Source of the DNA: a virus
IMG/VR virus record: IMGVR_UViG_3300032287_001569
Location: 1 to 26,999 of that record
Strand: one strand, 5' to 3'
Length of the DNA: 26,999 nucleotides
Part shown: one piece after another, positions 11,823-19,878 of the stretch
Position numbering within the stretch: position 1 is the first letter of the stretch
Layout of the letters: the number at the start of each line of letters is the position of its first letter
Translations under genes and position numbers: made by a program
Notes under the pieces: generated by a model
Databases searched by the model: none
Told to the model about the DNA's origin: nothing
What the model saw: only the letters and a program-made list of their open reading frames with translations

Positions 11823-13694
11823 CTATTCGTAACTGGACATCTCGTAGTCGTTTACATTTACAGTAAATCGATGATCGAGTTGCTTTCGAGTAGCCCATCT
11901 ATTTTTAATGTGGGTCTGATTTATATTTCCATTATTAACTATTTCACGTGCTCTTAGTTCACAGAACCATAAAGCCATAACGCAGTCAGTAGGACCACGA
12001 GTATCAGGTTTCCAAGTAATCAATTGCTGTATTAAAGCCTTGATACCTTCAGAGCCTTCCTGAGAAGGAAGTTCTATTAGGTTATTATCCTGATGTAGGT
12101 TATTTCGCATAGTGCCAAATAGACCTGACATAGCGGCTACACCAAAAGATGTGTCCCACTTGTTCTTACCTGTGAATTGACTTGAGAATCTAATGCCTCT
12201 AGAGGCTAGGTATGAATTTAGATCTGCGTCTAAGGCGTAAGCCTTCTGATGAGCATTAGTCTCAATTCTTAGTTCTTGAGGATTGTACTTAGTACACCAG
12301 TCCTCAATTAACTCTTGTATCTTTGCAGGTGTTGGATCTTTCATATTCTCAACATCTAGCACATACCGTTTACGTGATACACGATCTACGGTCATAATTA
12401 CTGCTGCAGTTCTACCACTCATTGCTGGGTCTAATCCCATTATGGTGTAATAAGAACCTGCTTCTTTAGGATGTCCTGGGACTCCTGGTTTTAACGGTCC
12501 TCGTTTTCGCATCCCGTTGATTGAACCTTGCACACAACCAGGGGAAAAAATAGAATCTTCTTGGATGTCTTGCTGTTGATAAACCAAAGCCCAGGCAGAG
12601 GCCGATACTTCACTTCGGCGCCTAAATAGAGCGGGGCCATTCCATTTCGGGTATAACCCATCTTCATCAGGTTGAACCTCTTCCTCAGAACCTTCCCATG
12701 GTATATGGGACTTAGGCCATAATGTAACCCAGTCTTCGGGGTCATCACCAAATTCAAGTACCGCTGGCATGTTCATGTAGGTAAAAGGAGTTTTACCACC
12801 AGACCAATGCTCAGGGTTTCTTATCTCTCGATAGAGATCATTTGCTGCAATTCGTGTTCCTACAATAAGTAACTTACCAGCATCACCAAGACGAGTAATA
12901 ACTTCTCGTTGTAGCCAGAGTAGTTGCTTCTCCCACTCATGAGCGTTGGTAGTAGTCACAACGTCATCAAGGATAATTAGATCAGAACGAGCACCAGTAA
13001 TCTGACCACCAATACCTAGGGCCTGTACAGTAGGATCTTTTTCGGTGGAATCACGTGCTACATAGATTCGATCAGCCTTCCAAGAATCTGAGTCCTCTTT
13101 CCAACCACCAGCGCTTCCATAGATGGCTTGCATCTTAGACCAGCGTTCATGGTTGAGTCTTTGCTTTATAGAGTACAGGTACTCCTTAGCACGTTCTTGG
13201 GTTTTAGAGACAATAGTAATTTTAACATTCGGATTCATCGCTATCCGATATACACAGTAGTTGACTGTGATGACTGTAGACTTAGCGTGCTCAGGTGGTA
13301 CATTGATTAAAAGTCTTTTAGATGAGGCTGGCTCATAGACCATAGTATCATGCAGCCAGGAAGGTGTCCTACCTTCAAGGATGTCAATCCAATTCTGATG
13401 ATGTGGGAAGATTGGGCTATCTAAGAACTCTCTTGAGAACTCTTCAAAGCCTATCTTAAACTTAGCATCACCTGAGACAATGGAGATAGCCTTCTGGCCC
13501 TCATCCTTTGCCTTCTCTAGTTCAGCCATGAACTTAGAGTCTTTCTTCCAGTCCTTCAGGACATCTGGTTTGCGACCAGCCCTGACAATGGCATCTTGAA
13601 TGGATAGACCTTGCCTAGCATAGTCAATAACCTTGGCCTTGGCCTCACGTAGGGCTACAACGCTGTGGTGTTCTCCACCCGCTTTAAACCCCAT
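11823..13694 (-). CDS. Terminase large subunit with N-terminal helix-turn-helix
   Basis: The DNA packaging motor and nuclease. With the start at 13694 it is 623 residues. The ATPase has a Walker A-like NVPPEHAKST (131-140), Walker B LIILDD (239-244) and coupling motif IVGTR (277-281). The nuclease has its first Asp in MGLDPAMSG (Asp422), a Glu in LRIETNAHQKA and a late Asp in GPTDCVMALWF. Residues about 21-65, with GLSIQDAIVRAGRKPDVLKDW, resemble the helix-turn-helix normally found in small terminases. The chosen ATG has GGAGG six bases upstream; an in-frame start at 13745 would lie inside a leader hairpin and lacks a site. No separate small terminase is recognisable. The downstream portal gene is seven bases away. 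Confidence 0.93.
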   Translation of the reverse strand: MGFKAGGEHHSVVALREAKAKVIDYARQGLSIQDAIVRAGRKPDVLKDWKKDSKFMAELEKAKDEGQKAISIVSGDAKFKIGFEEFSREFLDSPIFPHHQNWIDILEGRTPSWLHDTMVYEPASSKRLLINVPPEHAKSTVITVNYCVYRIAMNPNVKITIVSKTQERAKEYLYSIKQRLNHERWSKMQAIYGSAGGWKEDSDSWKADRIYVARDSTEKDPTVQALGIGGQITGARSDLIILDDVVTTTNAHEWEKQLLWLQREVITRLGDAGKLLIVGTRIAANDLYREIRNPEHWSGGKTPFTYMNMPAVLEFGDDPEDWVTLWPKSHIPWEGSEEEVQPDEDGLYPKWNGPALFRRRSEVSASAWALVYQQQDIQEDSIFSPGCVQGSINGMRKRGPLKPGVPGHPKEAGSYYTIMGLDPAMSGRTAAVIMTVDRVSRKRYVLDVENMKDPTPAKIQELIEDWCTKYNPQELRIETNAHQKAYALDADLNSYLASRGIRFSSQFTGKNKWDTSFGVAAMSGLFGTMRNNLHQDNNLIELPSQEGSEGIKALIQQLITWKPDTRGPTDCVMALWFCELRAREIVNNGNINQTHIKNRWATRKQLDHRFTVNVNDYEMSSYE

Positions 13695-13725
13695 ATATAA
13701 CCTCCATAAAGATCCCCCTTCGTTC

Positions 13726-13778
13726 GGCGTCTTCAGACGCCTCACTACCCCCTAAACGAGGAGCGCAATAAGCGCTCC
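13726..13778. promoter_or_regulatory. Two leader hairpins before terminase
   Basis: Two perfect inverted repeats lie between the candidate promoter and the terminase start. GGCGTCT/AGACGCC spans 13726-13741 with a two-base centre, giving a practical six-base stem and four-base loop. GGAGCGC/GCGCTCC spans 13760-13778 with a five-base loop. On the minus strand both would fold in the mRNA leader, the first about 20 bases upstream of the Shine-Dalgarno (13701-13705). Neither is followed by a T run, so they are not terminators. They could affect translation or stability, or form part of a packaging site. Confidence 0.5.
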
Positions 13779-13818
13779 GAGAAACTCGCTATTTACTTCA
13801 CGCTCGTTTACGGTTACA

Positions 13819-13847
13819 TATATACTAACCCGTTCAACTAGGGTAAA
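13819..13847 (-). promoter_or_regulatory. Candidate late promoter for the head operon
   Basis: On the minus strand, TTTACC (47-42 of 138xx) and TATATA (24-19) are separated by exactly 17 bases, a sigma-70-like arrangement with four of six consensus bases in each box. Transcription would begin near 13812, giving a leader of about 118 bases before terminase. The match is moderate. The phage sigma factor at 19165-19878 may recognise a different sequence. Confidence 0.4.
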
Positions 13848-13928
13848 CCGAACGCACTATGTTTAAAAGTAGTATAAATTACTGACTTCATATGATGCCA
13901 AAAAAATATAAACTGATAGTGTATACAT

Positions 13929-14044
13929 CCGCCGCAGGCGGTTTAAAGCACTGGGGTCGCGTAGCGACACCTTGTGCGCCCGAAAAAGGCGCGATAGCGC
14001 CTTATCCCCGAGCGCCGAAGGCGCGAGGCGAAAAAATTTCGGGC
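13929..14044. other. GC-rich hairpin array with a three-way-junction fold
   Basis: Four compact hairpins and one closing stem occupy about 115 bases: CCGCC/GGCGG (13929-13941), GTCGC/GCGAC (13956-13968), AAGGCGC/GCGCCTT with a four-base loop (13986-14003) and GCGCC/GGCGC with a three-base loop (14012-14024). The last two are enclosed by an eight-base perfect outer stem, GCCCGAAA at 13978-13985 with TTTCGGGC at 14037-14044, which makes a three-way junction. The surrounding DNA is AT-rich, so the GC-rich arms stand out. There is no coding evidence. Being next to terminase, it may be a packaging site, a replication origin or a structured RNA. It is not a tRNA: the arm sizes do not fit and no CCA or T-loop is present. 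Confidence 0.6.
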
Positions 14045-14046
14045 AT

Positions 14047-14081
14047 TAAATAACCCCGTACACGTTCGCACGCATACGGGG
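14047..14081 (-). terminator. Rho-independent terminator of the 14101-14541 gene
   Basis: On the minus strand a seven-base stem CCCCGTA/TACGGGG (arms 14075-14081 and 14054-14060) with a 14-base loop is followed by TTATTT. It lies 20 bases downstream of the stop of the minus-strand gene 14101-14541, so it should separate that gene from terminase. The loop is long and the T tract interrupted, so strength is uncertain. Confidence 0.6.
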
Positions 14082-14100
14082 CTAAGTTTGTGTCGGGCGA

Positions 14101-14541
14101 CTATCTGCTCGCTGACTTTAGCGCTTGCAATAGCGCTGTGATTATCGCGTCGGGATTTGTTTCAACCTTCACGCTTCCCACGCTGTCGGTCTTGCGTGGC
14201 TTGCGTGGGGATTTAGTAGCAAGGATTTCCTGCGCCTCTGCGCTGTCTGCATCGTGCCAATTTTCACGCTTGGTTTTCTGTGTGGCTGGCTTCTTGTTAT
14301 CAACTGCAACGAGTGAGCAAAACTTAAGGAACGCGCTCATTGTTAGCGCTTCGTTTTGCTCGGTGCTTTCATCGTCTAGCGACTCGGCAAGTTTTGAGAT
14401 TGAAGCGCTTGCCATGTTCAGACGGGAAGACGCGCTACCTGTTTTTGATAGTGCGCTTTCCAAGCGGTTAGCAACTGACTTTTTCGCCTCGCTTGTGAAG
14501 TTCCAAGCGCTTAGCATTTCGTTTATCTCTTGCTTGTTCAT
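14101..14541 (-). CDS. Small helical Ser/Ala-rich protein, unknown
   Basis: A 146-residue protein I do not recognise. It is mainly helical and charged: residues 1-60 are Ser/Ala/Lys/Glu-rich, 60-80 contain the more hydrophobic MSAFLKFCSLVAV, 85-125 are a Lys/Arg/Thr-rich, probably disordered linker, and 126-146 form a short amphipathic helix. AAGGA seven bases upstream of the ATG and a terminator at 14047-14081 favour this strand over the overlapping open frame on the other strand, which starts with GTG and has no ribosome site. Position upstream of terminase would allow a small-terminase or DNA-binding role, but no helix-turn-helix is visible and the two genes are separated by about 400 bases. 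Five AGCGCT palindromes lie inside the gene. Confidence 0.6.
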   Translation of the reverse strand: MNKQEINEMLSAWNFTSEAKKSVANRLESALSKTGSASSRLNMASASISKLAESLDDESTEQNEALTMSAFLKFCSLVAVDNKKPATQKTKRENWHDADSAEAQEILATKSPRKPRKTDSVGSVKVETNPDAIITALLQALKSASR

Positions 14542-15202: not shown

Positions 15203-16762
15203 ATGCCTAACACACAGGTACCCCCAGAGGTAGGGGAAGGTACTTTATCCGCGTATTACTCAGAGGTTAGCACCCATGAGTGGTACGAAAAACTCATGCC
15301 CGAACAGAAAATCGGGCTTCGCTCATTGAGCATTGGCACGCCATTATGGGGCGTGTGTGAGTGTGGTCGTGGAAGTAAGTTATACGCTTACACGTACAAA
15401 ATCGGTGACAGAGATATACTCGGACAGATTCGTTGCTTACGTTGCACACGTAATCGAGTGATTACTGGGTTATCTATTTGGTACGATTACTGGCACGAGA
15501 ATCACACGAACCTCACAGGTGGCGAAATAGAGGAGATAATCATGCCTCAACGCTACTTCCCGCAAACCACAGAGGAACGTGATTCATGCGGTAACTGCTC
15601 AAATCTCATCTACGAGCCAAACGATATCAACATAATGTCGAGTAGCGCGTTATGGACTAACGCGTTAGACGCTAATGGCGATATGGTTAAAGCGCATGTA
15701 CGCTGTACTTTCGTGTGTTCATGCGACAAGACTTACCTAACTCGTGGTAGTAACTCCCATTACGTAGATAGAGCGCTCACATGTGCCACTTGCGTGGAAC
15801 AATTACTAGACGCAGACGAAATACGTATGTGCGAACATTGTTCTAACTACACGGCAGATATCCATTGGTCAGAGCAACGCCAAGTGGAGTTGTGTGAAAA
15901 TTGCTACAACGAGGAGTGGGAGTGTAACGATTGTGGTTACGAGATAAGCGAAGGCTACGACCACGAGTGTTATCGTGAGGCTAACAGCAATATCTACGAG
16001 TACAACTACAAGCCCGACCCACAGTTCTACGGGAACGATGATTACTACTTCGGCTTAGAGTTAGAGGTCGAAGACGCAAACGGGTGGGGCTGTGAAGATG
16101 GCGCTCAACTCGTACAAGATGAACTCGGTAGTCGCATATATTGTAAGCGTGATGGCTCACTAAATAACGGCTTCGAGATAGTTACCCACCCTCACTCGTT
16201 CCAAGCACTAAAGACACTCGACTTACGTGTCTTGGAAGTACTACGCAGGAAAGGCTTCCGTTCATGGGATACATCAACATGTGGATTACATGTACACATC
16301 TCACGTACAGCCTTCCGCAAAAATGGAAAGCCCGATAAGGCACACGAACTACGCTTCCAAAAACTCATCTACGACAATGGTGTGCATGTACGTGGCATAG
16401 CAGGGCGTAGTAGTTCCTATGCACGCTTCAACGATAAAGGCAAACTCGTACCTAAAGTAAAGTACGGACAGAGCGAGGATAGGTACGAGGCTATCAACGT
16501 ACAGAACGACCATACGCTAGAGGTTAGAGTGTTTCGTGGTTCACTCAAACCTGAACGTGTGTTATCAGCAGTAGAGTTTCTACACTCTGCGATAGAGTAC
16601 ACACGTGATATGAAAGTAAATCCAAAGGACAACCAGTTATCTTGGATACGCTTCATGGCTTATGTGCTAGACAGCAAGGAAAAATATCAAAACTTTGCGC
16701 AAATCGCGTTAAAGAATCTCGATAATCCGAGAGATACACAGAGTAACGAGGAGGACAACTGA
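15203..16762 (+). CDS. Zinc-ribbon amidoligase (glutamine-synthetase-like fold)
   Basis: A 519-residue two-part protein. Residues 1-260 hold many Cys pairs: 52/54, 78/81, 129/132, 168/172/174, 194/197, 210/213, 231/234 and 241/244, a chain of zinc ribbons likely used to bind nucleic acid or a protein partner. Residues about 280-475 match the amidoligase family related to glutamine synthetase: FGLELEVE (283-290), DGSLNNGFEIVT (317-328), CGLHVHISR (360-368), RYEAINV (427-433) and TLEVRVFRGSL (438-448). Such enzymes are thought to use ATP to join a carboxylate to an amine. The product and target are unknown. The stop overlaps the next start as TGATG, coupling it to the amidotransferase, a pairing known for this family. 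Confidence 0.85.
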   Translation: MPNTQVPPEVGEGTLSAYYSEVSTHEWYEKLMPEQKIGLRSLSIGTPLWGVCECGRGSKLYAYTYKIGDRDILGQIRCLRCTRNRVITGLSIWYDYWHENHTNLTGGEIEEIIMPQRYFPQTTEERDSCGNCSNLIYEPNDINIMSSSALWTNALDANGDMVKAHVRCTFVCSCDKTYLTRGSNSHYVDRALTCATCVEQLLDADEIRMCEHCSNYTADIHWSEQRQVELCENCYNEEWECNDCGYEISEGYDHECYREANSNIYEYNYKPDPQFYGNDDYYFGLELEVEDANGWGCEDGAQLVQDELGSRIYCKRDGSLNNGFEIVTHPHSFQALKTLDLRVLEVLRRKGFRSWDTSTCGLHVHISRTAFRKNGKPDKAHELRFQKLIYDNGVHVRGIAGRSSSYARFNDKGKLVPKVKYGQSEDRYEAINVQNDHTLEVRVFRGSLKPERVLSAVEFLHSAIEYTRDMKVNPKDNQLSWIRFMAYVLDSKEKYQNFAQIALKNLDNPRDTQSNEEDN

Positions 16763-17601
16763 TGTGTATGTTATGTGTAGTTCCACCCAACGTACTACCT
16801 TCGCGTGATAAATTAACTTATTCCGCGATAAATAATCCTGACGGCTTCGGCTTTGCGATAGTAGTTTCCAGCGAGAAACGTATTATCGTTGAGCACACAA
16901 TGAACGCAGACGAGGCGGTCAATCGCTTCCTCGAAATGCGTGCTAAGTATCCTGATGACTACGCCTTATGGCACGCAAGATACGCTACGCATGGTTCAAC
17001 TACCTTGAACAACTGCCACCCGTTTTACGTGGTAGATGAGCAAACTGTACTAGCGCACAATGGCGTGTTACCTGTTGATATTCCAGCAGGAGATACACGT
17101 TCAGATACACGCATATTTACGGAAGATGTTCTTGCGCAAATGGGCGGTGTTAAAGCCTTAGATAATCCTCACATGTATAACATGATAGAGGAATACACGT
17201 CAGGCTCTAAGTTATGCGTACTCACAGTAGACCCCCGTGCTGACTATCAGATGTACTTGATACACGCAGACAAAGGTAGCGAGGACGAGAGCAAGGTGTG
17301 GTGGTCTAACGATAGTTGCAAGGCAGACTACGGCACACGTTGGGCGACTACTCGTTCATACGATAGTTTCTATCCCCCTTACGTATACGATTCATACGAC
17401 CTAAGCACAGACACGGAAGGTGTATTCCAATGTGTGGCTTGCATGGCGTACATAGATGAGGACAGACTAGAGAAAGACGCTATATGCCCAATGTGTGAAA
17501 CGTGCCAATGGTGTGATATGAATACCAACACGTGCATGTGTTACAAACCAGCAAAGAAAACGCATGAGGTAACTGTGCAAAACGCATGGGGGCTAGTATG
17601 A
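16762..17601 (+). CDS. Class II glutamine amidotransferase with zinc-ribbon tail
   Basis: A 279-residue protein. Cys2 would be the N-terminal nucleophile once Met1 is removed. The family motifs follow: NNPDGFGFAI (24-33), WHARYATHG (70-78), the LAHNGVL loop (97-103) and DTRSDT (111-116). It should hydrolyse glutamine to glutamate and ammonia. It carries no synthase domain of its own, so the acceptor enzyme must be a partner, most simply the amidoligase encoded immediately upstream with a one-base overlap. The last 60 residues hold eight Cys (224, 227, 242, 245, 248, 251, 258, 260), a second zinc-ribbon module that echoes the amidoligase. GAGGAG lies eight bases before the start. Confidence 0.85.
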   Translation: MCMLCVVPPNVLPSRDKLTYSAINNPDGFGFAIVVSSEKRIIVEHTMNADEAVNRFLEMRAKYPDDYALWHARYATHGSTTLNNCHPFYVVDEQTVLAHNGVLPVDIPAGDTRSDTRIFTEDVLAQMGGVKALDNPHMYNMIEEYTSGSKLCVLTVDPRADYQMYLIHADKGSEDESKVWWSNDSCKADYGTRWATTRSYDSFYPPYVYDSYDLSTDTEGVFQCVACMAYIDEDRLEKDAICPMCETCQWCDMNTNTCMCYKPAKKTHEVTVQNAWGLV

Positions 17602-17792: not shown

Positions 17793-17940
17793 GTGCATAG
17801 ATACACGCTGTTACAAGTGTGATGTACCGATATGGGTACCCACACATGATTACAACGAGGAACGAAACTACTGCTACGCATGTGGCATGGTCAAACTAAG
17901 TGTGCTACTAGAGCACGCAGGAAGGAACTCAAATGAATAA
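17779..17940 (+). CDS. 53-residue zinc-ribbon protein
   Basis: A short gene with clear coding content. Two Cys pairs, RCYKCDVP (11/14) and YCYACG (32/35), make a four-Cys zinc ribbon, the third zinc-ribbon protein in a row in this cassette. Its ATG lies within the end of the preceding gene and its stop overlaps the start of the WhiB gene by eight bases. A GAGTT stretch is the only weak ribosome site, so translation probably depends on coupling. It could bind nucleic acid or the zinc-ribbon parts of its neighbours. Confidence 0.65.
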   Translation: MRTTKCIDTRCYKCDVPIWVPTHDYNEERNYCYACGMVKLSVLLEHAGRNSNE

Positions 17941-18310
17941 CTCACCTGCGTTTAAGAACGAGGCGCTGTGTGCTGGCGATTCGCGTCCAAACGATTGGTT
18001 CCCTGAGTTTCCCCCATCAGGCGACCCAAGAAAACGTGTAGGTATTCGTTTTGAATACTCATACACACCAGAAGCCACACGTGCTAGAAGTATCTGCTTA
18101 AATTGTCCTGCGTATGATGAGTGTTTAGAATACTCACTACAATGGACAGACCTCGAGGGTATATGGGCAAATCTAGATACCTATGAGCGTAGAGAATATC
18201 AACGCGAGCAAGGCTTGAAAACTACAAGTCTAACTTTCTCATACGAGAATCCGCTTGATATAGCACGTCCACAACCACAAGAAAGCGAGTTCGATAATGA
18301 ACTACAATGA
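17933..18310 (+). CDS. WhiB-family iron-sulfur transcription regulator
   Basis: A 125-residue protein with the four WhiB cysteines: Cys13 (ALCAGDSRPNDWF) and CLNCPAYDEC at 55/58/64. These bind a [4Fe-4S] cluster. The turn GIWAN (76-80) replaces the usual G(V/I)WGG, followed by a basic DNA-contact stretch (YERREYQREQ). WhiB proteins act with the host sigma factor and occur essentially only in actinobacteria and their phages, which makes this the strongest host clue. The extra C-terminal 30 residues are acidic and probably disordered. AGGAA lies eight bases before the ATG. It may control the cassette or host genes; a link to redox state is known for the family but not shown here. Confidence 0.88.
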   Translation: MNNSPAFKNEALCAGDSRPNDWFPEFPPSGDPRKRVGIRFEYSYTPEATRARSICLNCPAYDECLEYSLQWTDLEGIWANLDTYERREYQREQGLKTTSLTFSYENPLDIARPQPQESEFDNELQ

Positions 18311-19022: not shown

Positions 19023-19241
19023 TCACGCGTACACACGGGAACCACGCACAGAAAGTTTGTGTTGGTCCTCTCCATACATCGCTGTTACACGGAACATGGT
19101 GAGTTGGCACAGACAAGCCCTACCTAATGCGTCAACTAAATCTTTATCTTGCGATTCAACCCACTCATTGTTCATCAAGTATTTCTGTATCGTCTGGAAC
19201 GCTATCGCTATCTCCCGTGGTGATATCAGTTCCTTGCTCAT
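19023..19241 (-). CDS. Small protein at the end of the early operon, unknown
   Basis: A 72-residue protein overlapping the end of the sigma-factor gene by 77 bases. A strong GAGGAGGAG ribosome site sits six bases before the ATG at 19241, inside the sigma gene. An internal ATG at 19175 would cut the overlap to 11 bases but has no site. The body is helical (REIAIAFQTIQKYLMNNEW, then DKDLVDALGRACLCQLTMF). No family is recognised. The C-terminal codons overlap the short sequences shared with the cassette's upstream flank. A role next to the sigma factor, for example as an anti-sigma partner, is speculation from position. Confidence 0.5.
   Translation of the reverse strand: MSKELISPREIAIAFQTIQKYLMNNEWVESQDKDLVDALGRACLCQLTMFRVTAMYGEDQHKLSVRGSRVYA
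19028..19085. repeat. Downstream copies of the cassette's upstream repeats
   Basis: CGTACACACG (19028-19037), GTTTGTGTTGGTC (19055-19067) and ATACATCGCTGT (19074-19085) are exact copies of sequences at 14771-14780, 14672-14684 and 14759-14770, so they flank the plus-strand cassette on both sides in the same orientation. The order differs between the two sides. One such match would be expected by chance; three within 60 bases is less likely. They lie in the 3' end of the small gene 19023-19241. Confidence 0.45.
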
Positions 19242-19878
19242 TTATCTCCTCCTCTGTGTAATCTCTTTCCTTGCGTGGATAATTACCACCCAAGAAGTTT
19301 AGCATATTCTTTAATGCTCTGTTAACACGCATACGTACCGCGTCCTGAGATATAGATAATTCAGAGGCTATCACGGCTAACTCAAACCCACTCGCGTAAC
19401 GCAAGATTATTATATCTTGCTGTTCCTTGCTTAATTTACTAATCGCTTTTTCAATATCTGAGCATATTGCAGGCCAGTTATTACCCTCAGAAGCAACCTT
19501 TTTTACGTTAGATACGCTAAGATCATTCATCGCTGGCGCCTCTTTATTGCCTGTTAAAACAGCAGGAATAAGCGATTCTAGCATGTTTTTATCGTAATAA
19601 TAGTTATCTTCTACACGAAAACCAACTGATTTAGCCTTCTCTTTTTGACAGTAATCTTTGGCAGTATTACGTAAAGATCGGGCTATAAGTTTAGTTGATT
19701 GTTTCTTGTCGTGTACATCATGCCAGTACTTAACTTTATTTGGGTGAGAAAGAAACCAAACCCATAACTCTTGACGCAGGTCATCTATCTCAACCATGCG
19801 ATACTTACGTGAGAATTCGTATGCTATAGAAGCAACGACACCTTCGTAATCTTCAATAAATCTTTTTACCATCGCCAT
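19165..19878 (-). CDS. Sigma-70-family RNA polymerase sigma factor
   Basis: A 237-residue sigma factor. Region 2 covers about residues 10-80, with IDDLRQELWVWFL at 31-43. Region 4 is clear at about 148-192: LSKEQQDIIILRYASGFELA, then the helix-turn-helix SELSISQDAVRMRVNRALK. Region 1.1 and most of region 3 are missing, as in small ECF-like sigmas. The last 40 residues are acidic and disordered. It lies near the 3' end of the replication operon, overlapping the phosphoesterase gene by 13 bases. The simplest role is to direct polymerase to late promoters such as the one before terminase; which DNA it reads is not known. Confidence 0.85.
   Translation of the reverse strand: MAMVKRFIEDYEGVVASIAYEFSRKYRMVEIDDLRQELWVWFLSHPNKVKYWHDVHDKKQSTKLIARSLRNTAKDYCQKEKAKSVGFRVEDNYYYDKNMLESLIPAVLTGNKEAPAMNDLSVSNVKKVASEGNNWPAICSDIEKAISKLSKEQQDIIILRYASGFELAVIASELSISQDAVRMRVNRALKNMLNFLGGNYPRKERDYTEEEINEQGTDITTGDSDSVPDDTEILDEQ

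Follow-up and report, generated by a model that had tools for sequence, protein, structure and literature searches.

A conserved leader RNA candidate and a probable genome end upstream of the terminase gene in a metagenomic phage group

The region upstream of the terminase large subunit gene in a 26,999-base virus contig from IMG/VR (here called the window) is a dense array of GC-rich hairpins, consisting of several adjacent elements rather than one structure (Table 1). The conserved structure within it is most readily understood as a 5′ leader RNA with a role in cis on the late operon. We think it probable that the array is the left genome end together with the control region of the late operon, with the leader acting in cis on the transcript. 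The relatives of this virus are a large phage group in metagenomes, and their nearest isolates infect Ca. Nanopelagicales, which are among the most abundant freshwater bacteria (PMC10202952). A conserved RNA and a genome-end site provide handles on late gene control and packaging, and we found nothing on either in the literature searched. The covariance model of the leader and the genome-end block can also serve as markers to orient and complete the metagenomic contigs of the group. The array is described throughout in the minus-strand (terminase) sense.

Table 1. Features of the terminase-proximal region of the window, listed in the direction of the terminase gene; functional names are predictions.
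Feature	Coordinates	Strand	Evidence
Small gene, stop codon inside the candidate genome-end block	14101..14541	-	no Pfam or PHROG family
Candidate genome-end (cos-like) block GCAGATAGTCGCCCGACACAAAC	14086..14108	-	invariance and exact contig starts
Intrinsic terminator, GC hairpin and U-rich tail	14044..14084	-	fold, gene co-occurrence
Three-way junction, outer stem 13978-13985/14037-14044, hairpins 13986-14003 and 14012-14024	13978..14044	-	variable cassette
GTCGC-TAC-GCGAC hairpin, then conserved CCCCAGTGC	13956..13968	-	kept in relatives
Promoter-like TTTAAA, spacer hairpin (13929-13941), TACACTATC	13915..13947	-	covarying spacer
Second promoter-like element CGTTCG...TTGAACGGGTTAGTATATAT	13818..13854	-	recurrence in relatives
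Structured leader RNA, ~97 nt, three helical modules	13718..13814	-	covariance model R1, E=2e-23 in window
Helix P1, AAAC-GA-GC ... GC-GA-GUUU, 12-nt loop	13782..13809	-	in 87/87 distinct sequences
Helix P2, GGAGCGC-UUAUU-GCGCUCC	13760..13778	-	6/8 counted pairs change on both sides
Helix P3, GU-GA-hairpin-GA-AC, flanks GGGGGUA and GAAGGGGG	13722..13745	-	7/8 pairs change on both sides
Terminase large subunit, first late-operon gene	11823..13694	-	phrog_38 E=2e-69, Terminase_6C

The hairpin array

An earlier note, made from the sequence of the window, had described a dense group of GC-rich hairpins next to the terminase gene, and the array is real: between 13,721 and 14,085 there are seven GC-rich perfect hairpins (stem of at least 5, loop of 3–8), whereas 500 dinucleotide shuffles had 0.77 on average and never more than 5. 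The array has a GC content of 49%, compared with 39% to its left and 43% to its right, and as a whole it folds better than its shuffles, with z scores of -5.6 as DNA, -5.8 as minus-strand RNA, and -5.7 as plus-strand RNA. It is also non-coding, as the note had stated, because the terminase start is reassigned from the GTG at 13,745 to the ATG at 13,694; the longer reading frame crosses the hairpin at 13,726–13,741. The eight-base-pair outer stem of the proposed three-way junction is exact and has the two hairpins inside it. The junction is thus present, but it is confined to close relatives, and deep conservation is found instead in the terminase-proximal hairpins. The list of hairpins in the note did not include the P1 stem at 13,782–13,809 with its tandem G.A pairs.

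Relatives and probable host

A search with the terminase returned 598 encoded relatives, of which 80 were kept, and pattern searches with the promoter-like motif and with the genome-end block added further loci. By terminase, the closest deposited genomes are those of the Planktophila phages LanE43AprE7 and LanE43AprF5 (OX376640 and OX376641; hereafter E7 and F5), at 58% identity, followed by Streptomyces phages such as Immanuel3 (45%); there are no nucleotide relatives among deposited phages. The host of E7 and F5 is a Ca. Nanopelagicales isolate, and both phages carry whiB and sigma-70 genes (PMC10202952). The window likewise has a WhiB gene (17,933–18,310) and a sigma factor gene (19,165–19,878), and its host is likely to be a freshwater actinobacterium.

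The recognised genes between the terminase and the left end of the window, among them those for the portal, an HslV-like protease, and a scaffold-like protein, all have the minus-strand orientation; the late (terminase-portal-head) operon is 13 kb long. Pfam and PHROG family searches of the window proteins did not identify a terminase small subunit, and the window contains no tRNA or tmRNA genes. To the right of the array, amidoligase-like and class-II glutamine amidotransferase-like genes (15,203–17,601) are present in a fixed order near the right genome end in all of the relatives examined.

A candidate leader RNA with covarying helices

The earlier note had offered a structured RNA as an alternative and had proposed looking for compensating changes in relatives; such changes are found, and they strongly support a structured RNA in the terminase-proximal half of the array. 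In a 39-sequence alignment, 16 of the 20 leader pairs have changes on both sides, with 145 such cells compared with 40 after shuffling, and the covariation score is 0.508 versus 0.172 for shuffled alignments and at most 0.091 with slid partners. RNAalifold, unaided, recovers essentially the same helices. P1 and P3 are both present in every one of 87 distinct sequences, where their first pairs are 99–100% Watson-Crick and use several pair types.

The three helices vary in different ways. P1 retains its stem, the tandem GA/GA, an RC/GY pair, and a loop of 11–12 nt in the relatives, while its inner two base pairs switch between GC/GC (34 sequences) and AC/GU (53 sequences). P2 is a hairpin that sometimes has an extra insert. 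P3 is represented by 53 distinct hairpins in the 87 sequences, and its first four pairs are 100% Watson-Crick. P1 and P3 have a CGARC/GYGAG motif in common, in circularly permuted order. A kink-turn was considered and rejected, as both bases adjoining the G.A pairs take part in covarying base pairs. Tracts of GGGGG at 13,714–13,718 and 13,748–13,752 flank P3 in nearly all relatives, and no pairing partner was found for them.

The leader spans 93–150 nt among the relatives, and P1 starts about 9–14 nt past the -10-like element. Model R1 has a single match in each of 19 of the 22 long contigs, and the P3 module is present at 66 of the 69 terminase loci that have upstream sequence. There is no match to the model in E7, F5, Immanuel3, or relatives at 61% identity, and its absence from E7, F5, and more distant relatives indicates that the leader is not essential to all terminase operons of this type. 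A search of Rfam (4227 families) gave nothing at the gathering score, and the best match of a permissive search had an E value above 1; no papers describing the leader or the genome-end block were found in a non-exhaustive literature search. The leader appears to be a folded RNA, not catalogued before, with which a long terminase-operon message begins.

Counts of G-U versus A-C pairs were too few for choosing the strand, and folding energy was used instead. All 87 sequences have the more stable fold in the terminase sense, with a mean gain of 7 kcal/mol. G-U pairs are almost absent from it, which is unusual for an RNA and leaves room for a role at the DNA level.

Position relative to the terminase start

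The gap between leader and start codon is 24–28 nt in about half of the relatives, a spacing that would suit control of terminase translation by the leader, for example autoregulation by a structural protein. The distance nonetheless varies from 24 to 53 nt, reaching 496 nt at locus L067, and the ribosome-binding site is covered by no helix, and we regard translational control as rather unlikely. At L067 (1771–2412) tRNA-Trp and tRNA-Asn genes and a terminator-like hairpin are positioned between leader and terminase; the leader has stayed with the promoter, some 496 nt from the terminase, and for this reason an effect on the transcript seems more likely than direct control of the terminase start.

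An intact leader separated from the terminase by tRNA genes would also suit a small RNA made independently, one that might serve in packaging as the phi29 pRNA does, as would a single copy per genome and a location at the left end by the terminase. Such an RNA is quite improbable here, however, as the window has no terminator between leader and terminase, the terminase is of the TerL type, no phi29 pRNA match was found in Rfam, and the leader is absent from the related isolates.

Promoter-like elements

Upstream of the leader the relatives have a fixed order of elements: the GTCGC-hairpin, CCCCAGTGC, TTTAAA, a hairpin with a loop of 3 or 4 nt, and TACACTATC. A spacer hairpin of at least 5 bp is present in 49 of 68 relatives, compared with 2.7 in shuffled spacers. 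For 30 spacers with 3-nt-loop hairpins the covariation score is 0.946 versus 0.164 after shuffling, and six of six pairs change on both sides; these sequences were preselected for a 3-nt-loop hairpin, which inflates the percentage paired. Such covariation in a self-complementary promoter spacer whose sequence is not conserved is unusual and open to direct testing. Elsewhere in the loci of the relatives, the TTTAAA-hairpin-TACACTATC combination was not found beyond apparent coding sequence and further copies of the same locus. The second element, with TGAACGGGTTA..TATA, is present in more than 100 relatives, and there is one per long contig in 19 of 22. From their sequence and arrangement we infer that both elements are promoters.

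A search of bacterial genomes with the promoter pattern gave 42 matches, none followed by a leader-like sequence, and these were taken as chance. The 3-nt loops prompted consideration of an N4-type hairpin promoter, which was rejected: no RNA polymerase gene was recognised, and a 1931-aa protein has no confident family.

A candidate genome end

The block GCAGATAGTCGCCCGACACAAAC is positioned directly past the stop codon of the small gene (14,541–14,101). The consensus in the relatives, GCAGATAGTCNNCCRACACAAAC, is nearly invariant in about 70 of them, although the sequences on either side of it are unrelated and many of the relatives lack the upstream gene. In the protein family of the small gene (the window and five relatives) the N-terminal part is conserved and the C-terminal ends are exchanged.

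Seven contigs from different metagenomes have the CACAAAC of the block as their first bases, and another three begin precisely with GTC, 9 nt upstream of it; a contig of 40,761 bases adds an eighth start at CACAAAC, at its terminase-side end. Of the roughly 45 contigs whose starts lie within 600 nt upstream of the promoter, 11 thus begin at one or other of two positions, as expected of a fixed end in a conserved sequence. As at a cos site, the terminase gene is adjacent, with TerL beginning ~400 nt from the block. We consider it quite likely that the genome ends at the block, and we favour cohesive ends over repeat ends. Two start positions 9 nt apart are expected from a short staggered cut after different library treatments; such a cut would be across GTCGCCCGA (14101–14093), with the left end at C 14092. 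Cleavage at the block would presumably be by the terminase, and the overhang polarity is likewise a prediction.

In a search with three protein queries the exact right-hand genome end was not found; right-arm contigs stop mostly before the block or 2–60 nt past it. In two contigs the CACAAAC at the start lies outside the block, and the end overlap of one contig is 123 nt and of the assembly type. The isolate records of E7 and F5 are not cut at the block site but start at unrelated places, as might be seen if the genomes had direct terminal repeats of the T7 type, with the block as the start of the repeat. The ~275-nt direct terminal repeat of Immanuel3, whose terminase is 45% identical and which does not have a cos end, also begins with GTC. 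We think repeat ends possible but doubtful, as the left-end starts are on two positions 9 nt apart, in the manner of a short staggered cut, and no recurring right-hand repeat end is seen.

Related short sequences recur. TTTGTGTYG is found on the plus strand of the window at 14,087, 14,673, 19,056, and 24,564. CCRACACAAAC is repeated in the genomes, always on one strand, with 1–6 copies besides the block clustered ~1.3–1.7 kb upstream of the terminase (recorded at L027, L024, and L047). Copies outside the block are also start points of some contigs.

Terminator and exchangeable hairpins

The hairpin next to the block (14,084–14,051) has 15 pairs, G-U pairs included, on the minus strand only, with a GCGA loop and a U-rich tail following. 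Of 24 relatives that have the upstream gene family, 21 carry a terminator-like hairpin after the block, and it is missing from all 48 that lack the family; in 30 of 30 cases the terminase sense gives the better fold. Functionally it is an ordinary terminator that serves the same-strand gene upstream and is of use only when the genome ends are joined.

Between terminator and GACCCC the relatives differ extensively. The three-way junction recurs in a few close relatives, L003, L005, and L206 among them, with altered outer stem and hairpins, and is not group-wide; elsewhere in the group other GC hairpins are in its place, and the distance from block to GACCCC is mostly 134–156 nt. E7 and F5 are near-identical to each other on both sides of this stretch and differ completely from each other within it. 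The hairpins here have apparently been exchanged as cassettes, and the junction could serve in bidirectional termination or as a spacer beside the cut, both of which are guesses. A palindromic unit, GCTGGGGCTCTGCCCCAGACCCC...CTGGGGGACACCCCCAGACCCCC, is a swapped cassette between block and GACCCC in many relatives (four loci are recorded) and looks like a mobile palindromic repeat.

The earlier note had suggested a packaging site next to the terminase. What stands is the location, as an invariant block is present at the upstream edge of the array and 11 contigs begin in it; what does not is the part given to the hairpins, which are not the invariant part and vary freely among relatives beside the block. 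The note was thus right about the neighbourhood, and right to list a structured RNA. Another reading takes the whole array as a DNA packaging site without any RNA function: its hairpins, in cruciform or single-stranded form, would be recognised by the terminase or by a partner, and the cut would be made next to them. The exact contig starts adjoin the array, hairpins are kept at a conserved overall length despite exchanged sequences, and the covarying helices are almost without G-U pairs. We nevertheless hold this to be unlikely: the deeply conserved helices run from just past the promoter-like element to just before the ribosome site of the terminase, the leader is ~300 nt away from the cut, and one strand is singled out in all sequences by its tandem G.A pairs and its lower folding energy. 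A replication origin, also named in the note, is the most improbable of the alternatives; dense hairpins do adjoin an AT-rich stretch, but most of the elements are accounted for as terminator, promoter region, and leader, and no iterons were found in the array.

A model for the left genome end

In the arrangement that we propose, the genome would be cut at 14,093–14,101, and the terminator and exchangeable hairpins between the cut and the promoters would stop right-end transcripts on circularised or concatemeric DNA. The promoter-like elements at 13,915–13,947 and 13,818–13,854 would drive the late operon, whose transcript would fold over its first ~100 nt into P1, P2, and P3, with the tandem G.A motif, next to two base pairs, occurring twice and one copy circularly permuted. 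Transcription of the leader and its action in cis are both predictions from sequence. The leader would most likely affect elongation in a manner like antitermination, and less likely terminase translation.

Antitermination is our favoured hypothesis: a role of that kind would fit a folded RNA placed where a 13-kb late operon begins, and also the arrangement at L067. The operon has 14 terminator-like sites, counting both strands, compared with 8.3 in shuffles, and among these no signal needing suppression is demonstrated. More speculatively, and only as a tentative suggestion, this could be a new class of actinophage RNA: a leader of repeated, circularly permuted tandem-G.A modules, beside a promoter with a covarying hairpin spacer, that either modifies RNA polymerase for processive antitermination or has a role in packaging at the end of the genome.

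Comparison with known systems

The terminator corresponds to known intrinsic terminators in its GC hairpin and U tract and differs in nothing save its placement just inside the genome end. Known cos phages include lambda, HK97, and actinophages with 3′ overhangs. The candidate genome end resembles the cos sites of tailed phages in having an invariant block upstream of the terminase and exact ends on two positions 9 nt apart; unlike those, the right end is not seen here, no small subunit is identified, and hairpin cassettes are present beside the cut. E7 and F5 have the block, as GATAGTC(A/G)CCT, at the same place, along with the same promoter-like motif, WhiB, and sigma factor, but their leader is a different one with other hairpins and no match to model R1.

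The phi29 packaging RNA is similarly encoded at the left genome end near a packaging gene. It differs in that the leader has no Rfam match (the phi29 pRNA model was not among the matches of the permissive search), the motor is of a different type, and nothing points to a free RNA here. The putL and putR antiterminator RNAs of the lambdoid phage HK022 are ~70 nt long, with two stem-loops, and are located in its early operons, putL directly downstream of its promoter; put RNA acts in cis, binding the zinc-binding domain of the RNA polymerase beta′ subunit and suppressing termination (PMC9378689). The leader would share with put, as judged here from sequence and position, a structured nascent RNA near a phage promoter that acts in cis over a long operon, whereas it is 93–150 nt long, has three modules with tandem G.A motifs, and heads the terminase operon. 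The put RNAs are the closest working precedent, with contact between leader and polymerase hypothetical.
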